A stretch of DNA of 64,000 nt, taken from positions 62,001 to 126,000 of the forward strand of contig NZ_BOON01000035.1 of assembly GCF_016863255.1 (NCBI RefSeq). Direction: 5' to 3'. The DNA is from Planosporangium mesophilum. Lineage in GTDB: Bacteria > Actinomycetota > Actinomycetes > Mycobacteriales > Micromonosporaceae. The translations under genes were made by a program, and so were the position numbers. A model generated the notes under the pieces. That model was given only the letters and a program-made list of their open reading frames with translations, searched no databases and was not told the origin of the DNA. Positions 27,920-37,000 of the stretch are shown piece after piece; within the stretch, counting starts at the first letter, position 1, and each line of letters begins with the position of its first letter.

Positions 27920-27985
27920 GCCGGCCCCGCGCGGCCGACGCGGGTCCACCTTGTGGCGACGCGGCGCGGTCACGATGCTGAGAGC

Positions 27986-28456
27986 GTGGATCTACTTCCC
28001 ACCGTGCTCTCGGCCGTGGCCGCGTCCGTCGCCGCGGTGTTCGCCGGGGTGAACCTGTACCTGTCCGGGCGGCGGGAACACGTGAAGTGGGCGCGCGACG
28101 CGCTCGTGGAGACGTTCCGGGCGTTTCTCGACGCGAGTTTCCAGAGCAAGGACGCGGTCAAGGCGGCGGTCCGGCTGAGCTGGTCCGGCGGTGACCCCGG
28201 CCGGCTCGCCGAGCTGCGGCGCGAGGCGGTGGCCGTCGAGCACGAGATGCGGCGGCTCCAGACCCGGCTGCGGCTGCTGACCTCGTCCGAGGTCGTCGCG
28301 TCCGCCCACGCGCTGCGGTCGGCGGTAGCGGAGTACGTGGCGGTGCTCGACGCGATCGACCCGGTGTCGGCCGAGACGGACCGCGAGCTTCGCCGTCGGC
28401 TGTGGACACTGCGCGAGGCGTTCATCGCGGCAGCCAAAGGTACCCTCGCCCTTTAG
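27986..28456 (+). CDS. hypothetical single-pass membrane protein
   Basis: About 156 residues. One N-terminal membrane segment (TVLSAVAASVAAVFAGVNLYL) followed by a soluble helical region rich in Arg, Glu and Ala. No family recognised. GTG at 27986 is the start that leaves the membrane segment at the N-terminus; the frame is open to 27953. It ends five bases before the convergent REC-kinase gene, so it may belong to the accessory block. Confidence 0.6.
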   Translation: MDLLPTVLSAVAASVAAVFAGVNLYLSGRREHVKWARDALVETFRAFLDASFQSKDAVKAAVRLSWSGGDPGRLAELRREAVAVEHEMRRLQTRLRLLTSSEVVASAHALRSAVAEYVAVLDAIDPVSAETDRELRRRLWTLREAFIAAAKGTLAL

Positions 28457-28461
28457 CGCGG

Positions 28462-30150
28462 TCAGAACGTCGGCCGCCGACGCAGGCCGGAGCCACCGGC
28501 CAGGATCTGATCATGGGCGGCCACCAGCGCGAGCGCCCGCTTGGCGGGTGGCAGGTCCTTCTGGTACGTGCGACGCAGCAACTGTTCGGCGAGGGCGACG
28601 TGCCACTCCCACCGCCGGCGCTCCTGCTCCAGCGGCGGCAGCACGTCGTACCGGTGCTCGGCGATCCAGCGCAGGGCGGCGACCACCGACGCGTTGCGCT
28701 CCTCGTCGTCGTCGATGGCCGGGTCGAGGTCCCCGAGCAGCCACGCCACCCGGCGCCACCGGGCGAACCGGTGCCAGAAGAAGGACTCCACGCCGGCGTC
28801 GAGGCTGCGCAGTACCAGGTCGACGGCGAGCCGGGCCACGTCGTTCGCCCAGTGGTGGGGCCCGAACCTGGCGAGGTCCACCAGCAGCGGCTGCGCGTCG
28901 TGCTTCGCGACCAGCACGTTGCCCCCGTGCAGGTCGCCGTGGCTCACGCACAGCAGGAGATCGTCGGCGGCGTCGGTGGCCGCGACGTCGCCGAGCCGGC
29001 CGTCCCAGCTGAAGCCCTCGACCACGTCGATGACGGCCTGCAGGTCGTCGATACCGGCGCCGGCCGGGTGGGCCAGGGCGGGCCCGAGTTCGTCGACGGC
29101 GGCCCGGACGAGCACCCGGCGGAACGCGGGCAGGACGAGCCGCTTGATGGCCCGTTCGCCGTCGGAGACCACGCCGTCGCGGTACCCGACGCTCAGGCCA
29201 CCACGCAGGAAGAGCCGCTCCATCACCTGCGGCACCACGGGCGCGACGGCCGGGTCGGTGATCCAGCGCCGCAGCGGCAGCGCCTCGTCGGCGAAGGCCA
29301 TGCCCAGCGCCGCCCAGCCGTTGCGCGGCCCGACGGCCCCGATGTAGGGCACCACCAGCGGGTGGGCGTACAGGCCGGCGCTCCTCTCGGAGTTGCGCTG
29401 CTCGAGCCGCAGCGCCTCCACGTCCTTGCTCACCTTGATGAACAGTTGCCGGTGCGAGCCGTCGGCGAGCGTCGCCGCCGCCCGCATCACCCGCGCACCG
29501 GAGGCACCCGGCGTGACGTAGCTGAGGGCGATCTCGGTGGGCGTCATCTCGCGCGCCGCGAAGACGTCCGCGAGCAGCAGCCGGAGGGTGGGGTGCCCGG
29601 CGTCGTGGACCACCGACTGCATCCCCGGTTCCTCGGGGATCTTCAGGCTCGGCCCGAACGGGACCATGTCGCGCTCGCACAGCAGTGCGTACACCTTGCG
29701 GACGAGCTCCTGATGCCCGCCCTGTTTGGCGTCGGCCAGCAACTGCTGACGGCGAAGCACGATATCGGCGCCGCCGTCGGCCGCCTCGTGCTCCAGCCGC
29801 GGCTGGTGCACCGAGCCCTGGGTCAGGGCGACGATGACGGTCTTGTCCGACGCGGTGCGGGCCTGCTCCACGACCTCGATGCCGCGCGGCGCCAGTGGTG
29901 CGTTCGCCTCCGCGTCGTGGCGGACCGGCCGGGTGGGGAACAGCAGGTCCGCGATGACCACCGGGAACGGCTCGGACCGGTCGCGCCGCGAGATGCGGTC
30001 GCACGCGGAGTCGACGTCGTCGTCGAACACGATGCGAAGCTCGCAGCCGAGCTTGTCGAACGAACGCACCAGGCGCTTCTCCAGTACCTTGAGGTTGTCC
30101 TCCTCGTCGTCGACGAAGAGGATCTCGACGGTCTGCTTCGGCATGGTCAT
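28462..30150 (-). CDS. receiver domain fused to APH-type kinase
   Basis: 562 residues. Residues 1-160 are a receiver domain: acidic pair D14-D15 (FVDDEEDN), probable phosphoacceptor D68 (VVIADLL), Thr110 (ALTQG); the usual lysine near the end appears as Arg133. Residues 185-560 resemble aminoglycoside/choline kinases: ATP lysine K239 in LFIKVSKD, Brenner motif HGDLHGGN (H404-N411, catalytic D406) and metal aspartate D425 in LVDLARFG. So a phosphorelay input may switch a phosphotransferase. ATG at 30150 overlaps the stop of the giant gene upstream (ATGA), showing translational coupling. The kinase substrate is unknown; I know of no characterised protein with this order. Confidence 0.75.
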   Translation of the reverse strand: MTMPKQTVEILFVDDEEDNLKVLEKRLVRSFDKLGCELRIVFDDDVDSACDRISRRDRSEPFPVVIADLLFPTRPVRHDAEANAPLAPRGIEVVEQARTASDKTVIVALTQGSVHQPRLEHEAADGGADIVLRRQQLLADAKQGGHQELVRKVYALLCERDMVPFGPSLKIPEEPGMQSVVHDAGHPTLRLLLADVFAAREMTPTEIALSYVTPGASGARVMRAAATLADGSHRQLFIKVSKDVEALRLEQRNSERSAGLYAHPLVVPYIGAVGPRNGWAALGMAFADEALPLRRWITDPAVAPVVPQVMERLFLRGGLSVGYRDGVVSDGERAIKRLVLPAFRRVLVRAAVDELGPALAHPAGAGIDDLQAVIDVVEGFSWDGRLGDVAATDAADDLLLCVSHGDLHGGNVLVAKHDAQPLLVDLARFGPHHWANDVARLAVDLVLRSLDAGVESFFWHRFARWRRVAWLLGDLDPAIDDDEERNASVVAALRWIAEHRYDVLPPLEQERRRWEWHVALAEQLLRRTYQKDLPPAKRALALVAAHDQILAGGSGLRRRPTF

Positions 30151-33100
30151 CGGCGTGCTCCGTTCCCGCCGGCGGTGGTCCACCGCGACAGGCGCAGGTG
30201 GGCCTCGAAGCTCCACCCCTCCGCCGGGTCCACGGTCTCCAGGCCACCGTCGAAGTCGCGAAGTTTGCGCTGCACGGAGGCGATTCCCTTGCCCGGCCGG
30301 GCGGCGGCCCGGGTGCCGGTGTTGCGGCACACGACGGTGACGTGATCCGGCCCGGGACGTACCAGGATGTGCAGATCCACCCGCCGGTCCGCGCAGTCGG
30401 GGTCGCGGTGGGTGACGACGTTGTCGATGAGCTGCATGACGGCGTTGCCGAGCAGCTCCTCGTGGCAGAAAACCTCGACCTCGTCACCGTGCTCCGGTTC
30501 GATCGTGATGTCCACCGGCAGCTCGAGGCCGTGGGCCTCGTCGCGGCACCGCACGAGGGTCTTGTGCAGCGGCGCCGGGCAGGCGCTGATGAAGGCGGCC
30601 AGCGTCGCCGGTCTGAAGGCGTCGCCGTCCACCGACAGCACATTGCGCCGGAGCTCGTCGAGTTGGCCGGCGACGTTGCTCCACGCCATGTCCAGCTCCT
30701 GGGGCGGCAGGTCCAGGGCGTGCAGCTCCTGCAGGGCGGAGGCCAGCTCGGTCAGCTTGCGGGCGGCCTCGTCGGCCAGCAACCACACCCGCTCGGCCGG
30801 TCCGAAGTGCTCCTCGGCGAATGTCCCGAGCAGCGGCCCGGACAGCGGAGGCAGGAACGGCAGGACGTGTACCTGCAGGAACGCTTCGATGCTCAGCCAG
30901 CTGCGCCACATCACGGCCCACTCGTCCGGCCCACTGTCCCTGGTCAGCGGCTCCTCCATCTGCAGCAGGAGCCGGATCATCGCCGCTTCCGCATCGGGAT
31001 GGTGGCGCAGCATGTCGATGTAGTGCTCTCGTAGCCGCGCCCAGGCCTGCTGCGCGTCGAGGGTCTCCTGCTCGACCGAGGCGCGGTCGACCGCGAACAG
31101 GATCCTGGTGAGCAGCCACCTCATCTCCTCCGCCTGCTGCTCGGTGGCGGACCTCGGGCCTGACGCCTCCCGGCACCGGACGATCTGCGCGCGCAGGTCC
31201 GGCAGCGAGACCGGGATCTCGCCCGGTGGTCGGCGGACGACGTGGTGGAGCTGGTACACGATGTGCAGCAGCAGCGTCGAGCTGTGCAGCGACGCGGACC
31301 ACAGCTCGGGCAGGTATGCCACCAGGCTCTCCGGGGCCGCGGTCGCGAGGACCACCAGCGCCTGTAGCCGCAGCCGCTCCGGGGCGGCCTGGTCGCGGGC
31401 CACCCCGCAGGCCAGTTGCGCCACATGGCTGCGGCACCCGGTGAACCGCAGCGGTGGAAGCTTCAGCCACTGCCGCTCCGCGGCCAGCAGCCGGACGGCG
31501 GCGTGGGCGGCCGGGCTGCCCGGTTCGCCGGCGAGGCCGGCCATGAGGTCGGCGAGCCGTTGCGAGCGGGACGTGGAGCGCAGCGCGGCCACCAGGTGGC
31601 CGCGCAGCCGGATGTACTCCACGGCCTCGTCGGACCTGACCGGTACGCCGAAGGCGTCGGCCTGCCGGGACACCGCCTCCTCCCGGGTGACCGGTGTGAG
31701 CTGCCTGGCCAGCTGCCGGGCGTGCTGGGCCACCTGCGGTGACAGCAGGCCGTCGTCGGCCTCGCCGGACAGCTGGGCGGCCAGGCGGCACAGTGGACAG
31801 TTGCCGCGGGGTACGGCGGAGATTTCGAGCGCGGTGAGGAAGCGCACCCGGGTGGGCACGGCGTCCGCGGCCGATCCGTCCACCGACCGGATCATGGTCA
31901 GCGCCCGCTCCTCGTGGTCGTGCAGTTGGCTGAGCAGCACCACGCCGAGGATCCGGGCCGCGCCGGCCTCCGCCGCGAGGCGGATGAGCTGCGTCATCGT
32001 GGCGGCGTTCAGGCATCCCCAGTCGGCGAGCACGACGTCGCACCCGGGCGGCAGGGGGTCGAGGGCGTCCGGGAACGCCCACCGCGAGCCGGCGACGGAG
32101 CGGGGTACCGCCAGGGTGGGCACCGGCCGGCGGGCGCGCAGACTGCGGGTGAGCCGCCGCGCGATGAGGCGGGCGAATCTGGCGGCGTAGTCGTCGGCCC
32201 CGCCCGGGTAGCAGACCACGATCTGGCGGTCGCCCGTCGCCCGCCCGGTCTCGTCGAGCCACTGCAGGACCGTCGAGGTCATCTTCTCGGCCACCTGCTT
32301 GCTGAGCGGGCTGTCCGAGTCGATGACCCGGCCGGCGTCGAGGTAGACGGTGAAGTGGCCGTGTGCGGACCGCTCGATGTGTCCGAGGCCGATCACCCGG
32401 GACTGCTCGGCGCATCCGGCCAGGAACTCGTCGGGTTTCCAGATGTGGGGCCGGCCGCGCTCGGCCCGGCTGTCCGGCGCCGGCGACCGCAGCAGCGGGT
32501 CGATGTCCACGATCTGGTCCGCCGGTACCCGGGGCTCCTGGATCTCGGCGCGGACCAGTCGCACGACGGGGACGACCTTGCCGTACACCTCGATCGGTCC
32601 GTCCGTCGGCCGGGCGTCGATCGGCACGATGATCGCCCGTGGGATCGCGCCCCAGCTCAGCACCTCGGCCAGCGCGCGCCGCACCTCGTTCTCGGTCAGC
32701 AGGATGTCCGCGCAGAGCACCACCTGCGTGTGGGCGCGGATCCGGTCCACCCCCTGGGGCGCGTCGAACTGGTCGGCCATGACGTAGACCGATCCGCGTA
32801 GCCCCGCGCTCTCCACGAAGGTCTGCGACAGGTTCAGGGCGACGGGCCCGACCTGGACGATGTGGGTGTCCGGATGCAGCGCCTCGGGTACGTCCGCGGC
32901 CAACTTCTGCATCAGCAGGAACGCGGCGGTCGCGGTACCGATCGTGCTCTCGACCAGGACGTCGACCTCGAACCAGCGGTCGGTCAACCGCAGCGTCGGG
33001 GTCCGGTAGGCGCCCCGCAGGATCCCCGGGCCGCCCCGGTCCATCGCCTCGCGCAGCGCCTCGTGCGCCATGCGCTGCAACTGCCCGATGACGTCGGCGG

Positions 33101-34742
33101 GCCGTACCGACAGCCGGACCCAGTCGCCGTCGGGCTCGACCAGGCGGTCCTGGTCCCTCAGCAACTGCCGCATCGCGGCCGCGTCGGGGGAGCGCGAGAC
33201 CGGCAACCGCTCCCGCGCCAGCAGTTCGTCGAGCAGCCCGCGGACCTCCGGCGCGCCGCCGCACCAGTGTGAGTGGCCGGTGTCGTCGATGAGCAGGAAC
33301 GGGCCACCCCGCAGCTGGTCACCGGCCTCCGCCGCCGGCTGGTGATGCAGCGCGTCGACCGCGGCCTCCAGCCGTACCGGGTTGACGCCGGTCACCACGA
33401 CGCCGACCACCGTCGGCGCGGCCAGCCTCGCGGCGGCGCGGAGGATCTCGACCAGTCGTTCGTGGGGCACGCTGCGCCCCATGCCGCCGTCCACCGTCAC
33501 GATCACGTCGTGCTCGCGGGCGAGGTCGTACGCGGCGTCGAACGCCTTGGCGTCGTCGGCCTTGACCGGTACCCACCGGAAGTCGAGCCGGGTGCCGGCG
33601 GCCCGCGGTGCCACGGCGACCGGGTCGAAGCGCGTGGCCTGCGGCAGCACCGTGACGTCCACGAGCGTGCCCGCGGCCGGTACCAGCCCGGACTGCCGGA
33701 CCGGTTCGGTCACGTCGCCGGGCCCGTACACGTAGCCGCTGAAGGCGTCGGCGCTGCGGATGAGGACGGCCCCGCCGTAGGTCCGTACCAGTCGCAGCAC
33801 CCGCCACAGGCCGCGGGTCCCCAGGCGCGGGTCGGTGCCCTTCGGATCGCTGGTGGACCAGCGGTCGAACGCCCAAAGGATCGTGCCGTCGCCGAGTCCT
33901 CCGGGCGCGGCCCACGGCCTGCCGGCGACCTCGCCCGCGGTGGTCCGGGGCAGGTGCGGCGACAGCCGCGAGACGAGGCCTGCGCCGGAGTCGCCGACCA
34001 CGAGCCGGATCATCGTGGAGCCGGAGGCCGTCACCCACCGGGTCAGGTCGTGCAGGTGCGCCGGTGTGCCGTCGGGGTCCGTCGGCCCGTCCGGCCCCGG
34101 CAGGTGGGCGCCGACCAGGGCGTGCAGCGGCGGCCCGGTCAAGCCGTCCGCGGCGTAGATGGCGGTGTTCTCCACCAGTTCGTGTACGGCCACGTCGACC
34201 AGGAGCCGGGCGTCCCGTTGCGACAGTCCGATGTCGCGCAGCCCGGCCTGGACGGCGCCGAGCGCCTCCGACTGCAGCAGCGGTTCGCCGGTACCGGGCG
34301 GAATCCAGCGAAAGGGGAGGTACCGGTCGCCACCGGCCGTCGTGGGGTGATCGGCGTCGAAGCCGGTACCCTCGGCCGGTCCGCGGACCTCGACGCTCGC
34401 CTGCGGCAGGTGCGGCATGCGGATCGCCGACGTGAAGCCGGTCGCGTCGAGCATCTGCAGGCAGCGCCCCCGGCGCCACCCGGCGCCCGCGTCTTCGCCG
34501 GGCGTCCCGGCGCGGGGCGCCGCGACCGGCAGGTCCACCCCCAGTCGGGTTCCGCCGCGGGCCGCGCGCTCCGCCACCAGCAGCAGCTGCGCGAGCGAGC
34601 CGAACTCCGCGCACTCCACGGCCGCGAGGTCGAGGTGCAGATTCACCGGCCGGCGGTCGGGCGGACGTCGGCCGGACAGCAGCGGCCGGAGGGCGTGGTC
34701 GAGAGTTGCGGTGGTGAGTGCCTGAGGGAAGGTCAGGATCAC
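30147..34742 (-). CDS. giant STAS / GHKL ATPase / tandem OPRT-like signalling protein
   Basis: 1531 residues, unrecognised as a whole. Visible parts: STAS-like start (1-75, LHLDLAAVECAEFGS); GHKL ATPase 1 (about 150-365; N box VDVAVHELVENT with E188 and N192, G1 VVGDSGAG at 248-255, G2 GTRGLWRVLR from 308); a Rossmann- or STAS-like region (385-515); OPRT-like domain 1 (about 545-735, PRPP loop position VVLCADILLTENE); OPRT-like domain 2 (about 785-970, VVLADWGCLNAAT) ending in GNCPLCRL (C982, C985), which matches the CPLC tail of the intact PyrE encoded at 36160; a helical region (1000-1370); GHKL ATPase 2 (about 1400-1520; LIDNVVTH with N441 of the second thousand, G2 GKGIASVQRKL). Both PRPP loops lack the acidic pair and TTGG, so the OPRT folds are probably binding, not catalytic. 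No clear phosphoacceptor histidine domain. GTG at 34742 follows GGGAG. Confidence 0.7.
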   Translation of the reverse strand: MILTFPQALTTATLDHALRPLLSGRRPPDRRPVNLHLDLAAVECAEFGSLAQLLLVAERAARGGTRLGVDLPVAAPRAGTPGEDAGAGWRRGRCLQMLDATGFTSAIRMPHLPQASVEVRGPAEGTGFDADHPTTAGGDRYLPFRWIPPGTGEPLLQSEALGAVQAGLRDIGLSQRDARLLVDVAVHELVENTAIYAADGLTGPPLHALVGAHLPGPDGPTDPDGTPAHLHDLTRWVTASGSTMIRLVVGDSGAGLVSRLSPHLPRTTAGEVAGRPWAAPGGLGDGTILWAFDRWSTSDPKGTDPRLGTRGLWRVLRLVRTYGGAVLIRSADAFSGYVYGPGDVTEPVRQSGLVPAAGTLVDVTVLPQATRFDPVAVAPRAAGTRLDFRWVPVKADDAKAFDAAYDLAREHDVIVTVDGGMGRSVPHERLVEILRAAARLAAPTVVGVVVTGVNPVRLEAAVDALHHQPAAEAGDQLRGGPFLLIDDTGHSHWCGGAPEVRGLLDELLARERLPVSRSPDAAAMRQLLRDQDRLVEPDGDWVRLSVRPADVIGQLQRMAHEALREAMDRGGPGILRGAYRTPTLRLTDRWFEVDVLVESTIGTATAAFLLMQKLAADVPEALHPDTHIVQVGPVALNLSQTFVESAGLRGSVYVMADQFDAPQGVDRIRAHTQVVLCADILLTENEVRRALAEVLSWGAIPRAIIVPIDARPTDGPIEVYGKVVPVVRLVRAEIQEPRVPADQIVDIDPLLRSPAPDSRAERGRPHIWKPDEFLAGCAEQSRVIGLGHIERSAHGHFTVYLDAGRVIDSDSPLSKQVAEKMTSTVLQWLDETGRATGDRQIVVCYPGGADDYAARFARLIARRLTRSLRARRPVPTLAVPRSVAGSRWAFPDALDPLPPGCDVVLADWGCLNAATMTQLIRLAAEAGAARILGVVLLSQLHDHEERALTMIRSVDGSAADAVPTRVRFLTALEISAVPRGNCPLCRLAAQLSGEADDGLLSPQVAQHARQLARQLTPVTREEAVSRQADAFGVPVRSDEAVEYIRLRGHLVAALRSTSRSQRLADLMAGLAGEPGSPAAHAAVRLLAAERQWLKLPPLRFTGCRSHVAQLACGVARDQAAPERLRLQALVVLATAAPESLVAYLPELWSASLHSSTLLLHIVYQLHHVVRRPPGEIPVSLPDLRAQIVRCREASGPRSATEQQAEEMRWLLTRILFAVDRASVEQETLDAQQAWARLREHYIDMLRHHPDAEAAMIRLLLQMEEPLTRDSGPDEWAVMWRSWLSIEAFLQVHVLPFLPPLSGPLLGTFAEEHFGPAERVWLLADEAARKLTELASALQELHALDLPPQELDMAWSNVAGQLDELRRNVLSVDGDAFRPATLAAFISACPAPLHKTLVRCRDEAHGLELPVDITIEPEHGDEVEVFCHEELLGNAVMQLIDNVVTHRDPDCADRRVDLHILVRPGPDHVTVVCRNTGTRAAARPGKGIASVQRKLRDFDGGLETVDPAEGWSFEAHLRLSRWTTAGGNGARR

Positions 34743-35088
34743 ATCGACTCCCAGGGGACGGCCGGACCGTCAGTCGCTCGCGAGCGGCGAAACCAACAGT
34801 GGAGTCGGCCCAGTCTATTCGCAGAGAGCAATGTGTTGTCTACTGAAAGCAACACATGCGACTCGGTCCCGGTCGGGGCGCGGGTGATCCTGTGGCGGAA
34901 TCGACGCATCTCCGCCGGTGGGGACCTATCGTCTTTCTTGCCGACGGGTAGAAAACGCCGACTGGCCGGCCCCCGGGCTCTGGCCCACAGGCTCTGGCCC
35001 CTCCGGGCGTACCGGCGACTGCGCTAGCATCCACCGCGCTCAATATCATGAATCCCGCATGCCCTATCTACCGCCAAGGGGACGCCCC
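34743..35088. other. divergent control region of the accessory block
   Basis: 346 bases between the giant gene (leftward) and pyrC2 (rightward). It holds an 8-bp inverted repeat at 34831-34857 in a locally AT-richer patch, a -10-like TAGCAT at 35025-35030, a duplicated GGCTCTGGCCC (34977 and 34990), and the pyrC2 ribosome-binding site AAGGGGA at 35075. No gene was found in it. Confidence 0.5.
34831..34857. promoter_or_regulatory. candidate operator: ATGTGTTG-N11-CAACACAT
   Basis: Perfect 8-bp inverted repeat with an 11-nt spacer in the divergent gap. Half-site spacing of about two helical turns (19 bp centre to centre) suits a dimeric regulator acting on either or both transcripts. No regulator gene is adjacent. 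Confidence 0.4.
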
Positions 35089-36156
35089 ATGACACGGCTG
35101 GTGGCTCGCGAACCGGAGGCGTCGTCGACGTCGCTTCGGATCCGTCGACCCGACGACTTCCACCTACACCTGCGGCAACACGACATGCTCCGGGCGGTGC
35201 TGCCGGCGACCGGCCGGCACTTCGCCCGGGCTCTGGTGATGCCGAACACCGACCCACCGGTCGCCGACGCCGACGCGCTGGCGCGGTACCGCTCGGAGAT
35301 CGTCTCGGCCAACGAGTGGCCCTTCGAGCCGCTGATGACCATCAAGCTCACCGCCGGAACCGGCGACAAGACGGTACGGCTGGCCGGCGAGGCGGGAGCG
35401 GTGGCGGCGAAGCTGTACCCGCGCGGGGTCACCACCAACTCGGCGGACGGGGTCGACGAGGTCGACGACCTCTATCCCGCGTTCGCGGCGATGGTCGACG
35501 TCGGCATGGTGCTCTGCGTGCACGGCGAGAGCCCGGACGCGTTCTGTCTCGACCGCGAGGAGGCGTTCCTGAGCGCCGTCCTGCCACGGATCACCTCCGA
35601 GTTCCCGACGCTGCGGGTCGTGGTGGAGCACGCGTCGACGGCGGCCGCCGTGCGGTGGGTGCGCGACCACCGGGACCGCACCGGTACCTCCACGGTCGCC
35701 GCCACCATCACCGTGCACCACCTGTTGCTCACCCTCGACGATGTGATCGGCGACCTGCTGTCACCGCACCACTTCTGCAAACCGGTGGCGAAGCGGCCCG
35801 AGGACCGGGCGGCGCTGGTCGAGGCCGCCACCAGTGGCGACCCGGCGTTCTTCCTCGGTACCGACAGCGCGCCGCACGCCCGCGAGGCCAAGGAGTGCGC
35901 GTCCGGATGCGCGGGGGTTTTCACGGCGCCGGTCGCCCTGCCGGTGCTCGCCCAGGTCTTCGAGTCCGCCGGTGCCCTCGACCGGTTGGAGCGGTTCACC
36001 TCCGTGGCCGGCGCGCACTTCTACGGGCTGCCGCTCAACGAGGGCGTCGTGACGCTGCGGCGCGAGCGCTGGCGCGTGCCGGCCGAGTACCACGGGGTCG
36101 TGCCCTTCCTGGCCGACCGGTACCTGGACTGGCGCGTGTCCGAGGACGGTGAGTGA
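35089..36156 (+). CDS. pyrC: dihydroorotase, type II (second pyrC)
   Basis: 355 residues, the size and sequence of the enterobacterial class. Metal ligands DFHLHLRQHDM, carboxylated lysine in AAKLYP, zinc histidines in CVHGESPD and VVEHAST, catalytic aspartate in LGTDSAPH; all are intact, so it should be active. It is a different class from the pyrC at 22181. ATG at 35089 is chosen for AAGGGGA eight bases upstream. pyrE follows three bases after the stop, forming a two-gene unit divergent from the giant gene. Confidence 0.93.
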   Translation: MTRLVAREPEASSTSLRIRRPDDFHLHLRQHDMLRAVLPATGRHFARALVMPNTDPPVADADALARYRSEIVSANEWPFEPLMTIKLTAGTGDKTVRLAGEAGAVAAKLYPRGVTTNSADGVDEVDDLYPAFAAMVDVGMVLCVHGESPDAFCLDREEAFLSAVLPRITSEFPTLRVVVEHASTAAAVRWVRDHRDRTGTSTVAATITVHHLLLTLDDVIGDLLSPHHFCKPVAKRPEDRAALVEAATSGDPAFFLGTDSAPHAREAKECASGCAGVFTAPVALPVLAQVFESAGALDRLERFTSVAGAHFYGLPLNEGVVTLRRERWRVPAEYHGVVPFLADRYLDWRVSEDGE

Positions 36157-36159
36157 CCC

Positions 36160-36840
36160 ATGGACGTACTGCGGCAGTTGGCCGAGCGGGGCGCCATCTC
36201 CACCGACCGGCACTTCGTGTACGCCAGCGGCAGGCACGGCGCCGCCTACATCAACCTCGACCACGCGCTACCGGACACGACGCTGATGGCGCGACTGTGC
36301 CGCGAACTGGCGGCGCCCTTCCAGGGGCAGGCCGAGATCGTGGCGGCTCCCGCGGTCGGGGGCATCGTGCTGGCCGTCCTCACCGCCCAGGCGCTCACAT
36401 CGGACGGCGGCGCCGCGATCCCCGCGGTCTGGGCAGACAAGACGGGCGGCGGCGGCCTCGCGGTGGAGCGGGCCGGCTTCGCCGACCTGCTGCGCGGCCG
36501 GGCGGCACTGGTCGTGGAGGACCTCATCACGACCGGGGGCTCGGTGGCCGCGGTGTGCCGGGAGGTCGAACGGCACGGCGCCCGGGTCGTCGGGGTCAGC
36601 GCCGTCTGCAACCGCGGCGGCGCCACCGCCGGAGAGTTGCGCGTACCGCGCCTGCACTCGCTCGCCGAGGTCGAACTCGCCGCGTTCCCGGCCGACGCCT
36701 GCCCGCTGTGCGCGGAAGAGATACCGATCGTGGCTGACGTGGGCCACGGCGGCGAGTTCCAGGCGTTGCGGCCGGACTATCCCGGCGGCTTCGTACCGCT
36801 GATCTCCGTCGGCGGTGAGTGCCCTGGTCGCGGCGTGTAG
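36160..36840 (+). CDS. pyrE: orotate phosphoribosyltransferase
   Basis: 226 residues. Orotate/PRPP features are intact: YASGRHGAAYIN, PAVGGIVLA, mobile loop ADKTGGGGLAVERAGF and PRPP motif LVVEDLITTGGS. The C-terminal tail has CPLCAEEIPI, a form seen in one subgroup of PyrE proteins, and the same CPLC occurs after OPRT-like domain 2 of the giant protein. Three bases after pyrC2. It converts orotate to OMP, so with pyrD and pyrF downstream the pathway to UMP is complete in this window. Confidence 0.92.
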   Translation: MDVLRQLAERGAISTDRHFVYASGRHGAAYINLDHALPDTTLMARLCRELAAPFQGQAEIVAAPAVGGIVLAVLTAQALTSDGGAAIPAVWADKTGGGGLAVERAGFADLLRGRAALVVEDLITTGGSVAAVCREVERHGARVVGVSAVCNRGGATAGELRVPRLHSLAEVELAAFPADACPLCAEEIPIVADVGHGGEFQALRPDYPGGFVPLISVGGECPGRGV

Positions 36841-36854
36841 GCGCGCCGCACCTG

Positions 36855-36911
36855 GGTAGCGGGCCGTGGCCGCGACAGGCCACGGCGGCGGGTCCATCCG
36901 GTCCCGCTACC
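36855..36911 (+). terminator. nested hairpins after pyrE
   Basis: Outer arms GGTAGCGGG (36855-36863) and CCCGCTACC (36903-36911) enclose a 9-bp hairpin (36863-36871 with 36878-36886, GCGACA loop). A T-rich stretch (TCGTTTTGTTGTT) follows. Probable end of the pyrC2-pyrE transcript. Confidence 0.6.
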
Positions 36912-36942
36912 GTTGGGCAGTCGTTTTGTTGTTCAACTTACT

Positions 36943-36976
36943 CGGCCCGCGGAACCGGTGAAGAGTTCGCGGGCCG
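36943..36976. promoter_or_regulatory. inverted repeat upstream of pyrD
   Basis: CGGCCCGCG (36943-36951) and CGCGGGCCG (36968-36976) pair perfectly, extendable by AAC/GTT with one bulged base. It lies 24 bases before the pyrD GTG and could be part of a promoter or a leader hairpin. Confidence 0.35.
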
Positions 36977-37000
36977 GGACCGGATCGACGGTGAGGAAAC

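Follow-up and report, generated by a model that had tools for sequence, protein, structure and literature searches.

Within the window, that is, the whole 64,000-nucleotide stretch of Planosporangium mesophilum DNA analyzed here, we have identified two adjacent genes, P1 and P2, which are inherited as one unit and whose products bring together signaling modules and phosphoribosyltransferase (PRTase) folds. We give an even chance to the reading that the pair is a co-inherited cytoplasmic signaling unit, in which P1, as a large sensor-transducer, would switch the kinase of P2 through the receiver domain of the latter. Namely, the tandem PRTase folds (PyrR/PurR/APRT-like) of P1 would act as sensors and not as enzymes, with a pocket in which a nucleotide, PRPP or a (p)ppGpp-like molecule would be bound, and the STAS domain with the RsbW-type GHKL ATPase, as well as the C-terminal histidine-kinase-type ATPase, would change their state with ATP. 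P1 would then dock on the receiver of P2, with or without phosphotransfer, and thereby switch the fused APH-type kinase, which in turn may phosphorylate a small molecule or a protein.

The pair is located on contig C35 of a 6.6 Mb draft genome (G000), and its coordinates and domains are listed in Table 1. An earlier note on this DNA, made from the letters alone, had taken the two genes to be coupled by an ATGA overlap; indeed, the stop codon of P1 and the start codon of P2 overlap in this way at 30147-30150. The frame of P1 is open over 1531 codons, and the GC contents at the three codon positions on the minus strand are coding-like for both P1 (0.77/0.51/0.93) and P2 (0.78/0.44/0.95). Also, P1 has full-length homologs that retain the same architecture at 24-31% identity, and the observation is therefore not a matter of chance.

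Table 1. Features of the P1/P2 locus (positions are those of the window; residue numbers are those of the respective protein)
Feature	Position	Strand	Description and basis
P1	30147..34742	minus	1531 aa multidomain protein; GTG start at 34742
STAS-like domain	34413..34742	minus	P1 residues ~1-110; STAS_2 in 5/7 members
First GHKL domain (RsbW/HATPase_c_2-like)	33618..34325	minus	P1 residues 140-375; profile and motifs
Alpha/beta domain	33093..33617	minus	P1 residues 376-550; AlphaFold model
PRTase domain 1	32508..33092	minus	P1 residues 551-745; structure, PDB sequence hits, hhalign; PRPP loop within 672-692
PRTase-like domain 2	31788..32405	minus	P1 residues 780-985; hhalign, alignment; loop within 901-926
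Helical region with hairpin ahead of the kinase-type ATPase	30603..31787	minus	P1 residues 986-1380; AlphaFold model, alignment
Histidine-kinase-type ATPase (CA)	30180..30581	minus	P1 residues ~1388-1521; structure comparison
P2	28462..30150	minus	562 aa receiver-kinase; ATG start at 30150
Receiver domain	29731..30150	minus	P2 residues 1-140; Response_reg in 5/7 members and PDB profile hits
APH/TCAD9-like kinase	28507..29538	minus	P2 residues ~205-548; TCAD9-type match in 7/7, motifs
h167	27953..28456	plus	167-aa ORF in the insert; coding-like GC
Inverted repeat	34831..34857		8-bp perfect, 11-nt spacer; between divergent P1 and pyrC2
pyrC2	34918..36156	plus	Second dihydroorotase, dimeric type; TIGR00856, 361.5 bits (cut-off 292.95)
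pyrE2	36160..36840	plus	Orotate-phosphoribosyltransferase-like; TIGR01367, E 4.3e-31, 108 bits, below the cut-off of 150.25

A single-sequence search with P1 hit two of 296 genomes in the phylum, namely its own and one with a C-terminal fragment, and the search with P2 hit five of 397 genomes in the order, namely its own and four others. Immediately upstream of three of these four P2 matches was a full-length P1; the remaining match was weak, 129 residues long and interrupted by stops, and the genes called in its vicinity included neither P1 nor P2. When 84,980 species were scanned with patterns from the P1 alignment, six further P1 loci (L027-L032) were obtained, a lower bound given that the scan relied on two peptide patterns only: four in Micromonospora, including M. 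chaiyaphumensis (L028) and M. gifhornensis (L029), one in Actinoplanes cyaneus (L032) and one in Actinokineospora auranticolor (L030). Three of the six were contigs already met via P2, and a scan of genome contigs with the P1 sequence alone gave no loci. The C-terminal fragment in the phylum, as well as matches in five of 296 class genomes beyond its own, cover the C-terminal part of the profile only and were discounted, as a group, as probably ordinary proteins of the histidine-kinase-like kind. No relatives of P1 were found in plasmids, phages or viral contigs, and none of P2 in plasmids; a single match of P2 in viral contigs, 57 residues long, was taken as a generic kinase and rejected.

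In all six loci outside the window, P2 is located directly downstream of P1 on the same strand and in the same order, and the pair is accordingly present in every one of the seven P1-bearing loci (the window and these six). The survey of homologous gene pairs for conserved linkage, which the earlier note had proposed as a check, thus found the two genes together and not apart. An in-frame ATG of P2 overlaps the stop codon of P1 as ATGA in six of the seven loci, the window counted, and a 6-nt gap takes the place of the overlap in Actinokineospora. Furthermore, the pairwise identities of P1 and those of P2 are correlated with r = 0.995 over the 21 locus pairs, the p value of which is not meaningful because the locus pairs share ancestry. 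The dN/dS ratios of P1 and P2 were 0.25 and 0.21, respectively, between M. chaiyaphumensis and M. gifhornensis (L028/L029) and 0.44 and 0.37 between M. chaiyaphumensis and Actinoplanes (L028/L032), the latter with dS near saturation; both genes are under purifying selection. The sample behind these comparisons consists of seven members, four of which are from Micromonospora, and two of these four (L028 and L031) are 99% identical in P1.

The domain set that the earlier note had assigned to P1 (a STAS domain, two GHKL ATPases and two PRTase-like domains) proved right by family, profile and structure comparison. As to the folds, the GHKL fold of the C-terminal ATPase (CA) and the PRTase fold were found by structure, whereas the first GHKL domain and the receiver and kinase of P2 were recognized by profile only. 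In a Pfam scan of the window P1 at E up to 1, zero models were matched. Across the seven members, STAS_2 was matched in five, with the best E of 1.7e-4 (L027) being under the Pfam cut-off and the window copy having no match, Pribosyltran in five (best 3.3e-4) and HATPase_c in three (best 0.0042); in the four members with coordinates, no match was over the Pfam cut-off, and the HATPase matches were C-terminal only.

More sensitive comparisons were made by hhalign against sets of domains from the same genome, where unrelated pairs scored 0.1-0.8% and the E-values are those for single comparisons. The first GHKL domain reached 95.0% over 91 columns against the HATPase_c_2 set (14 domains), and its N-box (E188/N192) and G1 box (D251-x-G253-x-G255) are invariant in all seven copies; on these grounds it is a predicted RsbW-type ATPase. 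Against the RsbW-type set, the C-terminal ATPase reached no more than 2.2%, and yet it is a GHKL domain by structure, so the hhalign test misses remote relatives. P1 was modeled in two parts (residues 1-1000 and 980-1531), and the AlphaFold model of the former, with a mean pLDDT of 54.6, is poor over the first GHKL domain. Over residues 391-570, the 10-residue means of pLDDT range from 52 to 84. A second STAS domain, suspected at residues 376-550 from the order of the elements, found no support in a comparison with the N-terminal domain (0.2%), and the entries in the structure lists belong to the CA domain and PRTase 1. Likewise, an internal duplication of the two ATPase domains found no support in a profile comparison (1.3% only).

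In the following, active-site motifs are compared across the seven copies in an alignment made partly by eye. Across the seven P1 copies, no conserved phospho-serine/threonine was found in the STAS-like domain; the phospho-Ser position, placed by eye, is Gly or Val in all seven, and the residue one position off is Ser/Thr in four (Ser in the window copy) and Ala in three.

PRTase domain 1 is similar to known PRTases in both structure and sequence. The model of residues 553-738 is superposed on human APRT with Z 14.5 and an rmsd of 3.0 over 155 aligned residues, PurR is among the structural hits, and, in a PDB sequence search with the P1 profile, the top 11 hits are PyrR without exception and fall on this domain (best E 7e-4). 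Against the 12 PRTases of its own genome, hhalign gave 93.9% over 52 columns for domain 1 and 87.9% over 54 columns for domain 2, covering the PRPP-loop half only in both cases. Domain 2 had no structure match of its own, and a comparison of the two PRTase profiles reached 7.1% only, giving no indication of an internal duplication. The region of domain 2 opens with an LGH(I/F)xR...H(F/Y)..Y motif (P1 784-804, about 32331-32393 in the window), of which H788 and H796 are present in all seven copies and for which no family was matched in the Pfam scans, and the domain ends with an invariant C982-x2-C985.

The PRPP loops of the window P1, VLCADILLTENEV and VLADWGCLNAATM, are degenerate and deviate from the canonical motif. 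Judged by eye, the loops are near-canonical in four of the seven copies (L028, L029, L031 and L032); those of the window copy and of Actinokineospora (L030) are degenerate, and those of L027 partly so. Such a distribution fits binding over required catalysis, and degenerate loops might also equal a loss of ligand binding. As for the nucleotide or PRPP-like ligand suggested in the earlier note, with the loops of the window copy degenerate, PRPP is plausible and no more than that.

The alternative that survives best, albeit unlikely in our estimate, is a true two-component phosphorelay, in which the CA domain would phosphorylate a non-canonical His (H1007, or H1240/H1247), the phosphoryl group would pass to D68 of P2, and the kinase would be turned on. 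The C-terminal domain of P1 is, according to the AlphaFold model of residues 980-1531 (mean pLDDT 78.4), a histidine-kinase-type CA ATPase; its residues 1388-1521 match VanS with Z 14.9 and an rmsd of 2.5 over 125 aligned residues. Its nucleotide-binding motifs comprise N1441, R1473-N-T-G1476 and G1484-x-G1486, where the G1 box reads RN(T/D)G with Asn replacing Asp. On the side of P2, Response_reg was matched in five of the seven proteins (best 1.3e-10) and in neither the window copy nor L030, and a profile of the seven members hit receivers in the PDB (best 9.8e-8). D14 and D68 are invariant in all seven, and position 110 is Thr in six and Ser in one. D15 of the acidic pair is Asn in two of the seven, the Lys position (R134) is Arg in all seven, and the full receiver motif (an acidic pair, a phospho-Asp, a Thr/Ser and a Lys) is thus incomplete.

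The resemblance of the CA fold to histidine kinases and the retention of D14, D68 and T/S110 in P2 are in line with a phosphorelay, and so is H1007, which is on a modeled helix and, within the helical region, is the sole His shared by all seven copies (H1240 and H1247 are conserved in six). H1007 lies, however, about 380 residues N-terminal of the CA domain and right after the invariant CxxC, and it may therefore bind a metal. Furthermore, the hairpin preceding the CA domain (residues 1318-1372) contains no His conserved among the seven sequences, and the receiver Lys is replaced by Arg. A classical phosphorelay is doubtful from these residues, and the missing hairpin His together with the receiver Arg leads us to prefer docking or allostery. 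As for the phosphorelay-like switch of the earlier note, the domain make-up stands, but a literal phosphorelay is weakened by the absence of a conserved hairpin His, by the receiver Arg and by the finding of no phospho-Ser/Thr conserved in all seven STAS domains.

The genomic location of the pair raises a second alternative. P1 and P2 sit within a pyrimidine operon in the order of pyrC, carA, carB, insert, pyrD and pyrF, where the insert of ~9 kb (about 27920-37000) separates carB from pyrD; in three relatives of the same genus without the insert, pyrD follows carB after 6, 129 and 7 bases. In the stretches read from five further relatives, no homolog of h167, P1, P2 or pyrE2 was found; pyrC2 matched the ordinary pyrC only, and pyrD went uncalled by the simple gene caller in two of the five. 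The true start of pyrC2 is probably downstream of 34918, as the match to TIGR00856 begins at residue 73. No dimeric dihydroorotase was found in other genomes of the order (397, E up to 1e-30), and another pyrE, over the cut-off, is on contig C17 of the same genome. While pyrC2 and pyrE2 adjoin the pair, their membership of its system is only putative. h167 matched nothing in Pfam and NCBIfam. The inverted repeat between P1 and pyrC2, with the arms ATGTGTTG/CAACACAT, is operator-like at best, the pattern having been picked post hoc and short inverted repeats being present in both other stretches searched.

The pair could accordingly be a pyrimidine-status controller, in which PyrR-like PRTases would read UMP, orotate or PRPP and pyrC2/pyrE2 would belong to the same module. 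The extra dihydroorotase and PyrE-like genes in the carB-pyrD insert, the PyrR hits of PRTase 1 and the divergent region with its inverted repeat speak for such a role. Among the 83 neighbors called at the other six loci, however, none matched window genes besides P1/P2 at E up to 1e-5, the window genes compared including pyrC, carA, carB, pyrD, pyrF, pyrC2 and pyrE2 and not pyrB. The pyrimidine context is therefore seen in one of the seven loci and may be a coincidence of a single insertion, and the structure ranking favors APRT. We thus consider a pyrimidine-status controller improbable.

Neighbors other than P2 mostly differ between the loci, with few similarities at E up to 1e-5: the close loci L028 and L031 have several neighbor genes in common, and single similarities were noticed between L027 and L032 and between L030 and L032. 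A divergent ORF of ~183 aa was found upstream of P1 on the minus strand in L029 (9289-9840), L031 (9289-9891) and L032 (9291-9845); it is 77-92% identical among the three, has no Pfam match in L029 and L032, and either encodes a conserved small partner or is a shadow ORF. Also, L027 (9433-9711) and L028 (9485-9637) share a short plus-strand ORF immediately ahead of P1, with 59% identity over 49 residues, for which a Pfam search of the L027 copy gave no match. In Actinokineospora (L030, 16377-18446), a gene for an AAA/NB-ARC-TPR protein overlaps the end of P2, and this protein is a possible third component there.

The C-terminal part of P2 bears on a third alternative. A TCAD9-type match was found in all seven P2 proteins (best 8.5e-13) and an APH match in two, and the kinase residues K239, D406, N411 and D425 are invariant in all seven; APH-type kinases usually have small molecules as substrates. 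The receiver fused to an APH-type kinase, as described in the earlier note, is thus confirmed as a prediction at the level of profiles. A family membership in TCAD9 was tried and rejected; the window P2 scored 35 bits, below the cut-off of 40, and of four homologs scanned singly, L030 passed (48.7) and three remained below. Matches to TCAD9 at E up to 0.001 occur in 163 of 246 genomes of the class, with one over the cut-off, and matches of this strength are so common that TCAD9 here says "APH-like kinase" and no more. TCAD9 appears in a figure legend as a domain named for the vWA-MoxR-VMAP conflict systems (PMC10910872), and receiver domains are mentioned among vWA-associated effectors in another text, which does not contain the word TCAD (PMC7159879).

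A role in anti-phage defense or conflict, where infection would alter nucleotides and the P2 kinase would be a toxic effector, appears slightly less probable still than pyrimidine control. It would agree with the rare and patchy distribution, with the relatedness of the P2 kinase to TCAD9 and with the AAA/NB-ARC-TPR gene overlapping the P2 end in L030, but the searches for defense genes gave no clear signal in its favor. Namely, P1 of three members matched nothing in PADLOC at E up to 1; the window P2 had two weak matches (best E 0.0018) and two other P2 proteins had none; and among 73 neighbors of the six homolog loci, five PADLOC models were matched at E up to 1e-8, each by a single member, with no defense cluster found. 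In addition, neither vWA, MoxR nor VMAP was present among the 29 neighbors named by family search (10 in the window and 19 of the 83 called at the homolog loci), and TCAD9 matches are, as described above, widespread. Between the defense and nutrient roles that the earlier note had left side by side, therefore, PADLOC and the neighbors give nothing firm for the former, and the latter keeps a hint from the insert in one of the seven loci. Least probable of all is that the PRTase domains are active enzymes, the nucleoside-like product of which is phosphorylated by P2 with the ATPase modules being regulatory; the near-canonical PRPP loops in four of the seven copies and the usual preference of APH-type kinases for small molecules fit with this, but the window copy and L030 have degenerate loops together with intact kinase residues.

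Every single domain of P1 and P2 is already known, and the kinship of the pair is with two-component and partner-switch signaling. As in two-component systems, P1 has a histidine-kinase-type CA ATPase, P2 has a receiver with the conserved Asp, and the two genes are adjacent; unlike them, P1 has no conserved phospho-histidine at the DHp position and adds the PRTase and STAS/GHKL domains, and the output of the P2 receiver is an APH-type kinase. The pair is set apart from two-component systems because two of their defining features, the DHp His and the receiver motif, are not found in it. SpoIIAA/SpoIIAB (RsbV/RsbW) are similar in combining a STAS-like domain with an RsbW-type GHKL ATPase, which in P1 are on one chain; in the STAS domain of P1, however, no phospho-serine/threonine was found that is conserved in all seven copies, and this domain shares its chain with PRTases and a second ATPase. 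PyrR and PurR share the PRTase fold with P1, PyrR giving the best PDB sequence hits and PurR being among the structural ones, whereas the PRTases of P1 are in tandem within a signaling protein and their loops are partly degenerate. Also, the TCAD9 kinases of vWA-MoxR-VMAP systems resemble P2, given its TCAD9-type match in all seven members and over the cut-off in L030, but P2 has a receiver in front, and no vWA, MoxR or VMAP is among the neighbors named. In the literature searched on the domain combination and on TCAD9 systems, outside of which most subscription journals fall, no such arrangement is described; within that literature, the statement of the earlier note that no characterized system has this make-up holds.

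In our favored reading, therefore, P1 would sense a ligand through its PRTase domains and switch the P2 kinase by way of the receiver. More tentatively, and with less than even confidence, we suggest that the pair may represent an undescribed class of switch, in which tandem PRTase sensors drive a histidine-kinase-type ATPase that works without a phospho-acceptor His and controls a small-molecule or protein kinase via a receiver, and which has been recruited here into the pyr operon together with extra pyrC/pyrE-like genes. If this is right, modules of histidine kinases and partner switches would have been rewired around phosphoribosyltransferase sensors, with a kinase instead of DNA binding as the output. 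The insert in the pyr operon, with its extra pathway enzymes, would then offer a direct link to test, and the pair would be a testable case of nucleotide-status signaling in actinobacteria composed of only two genes.
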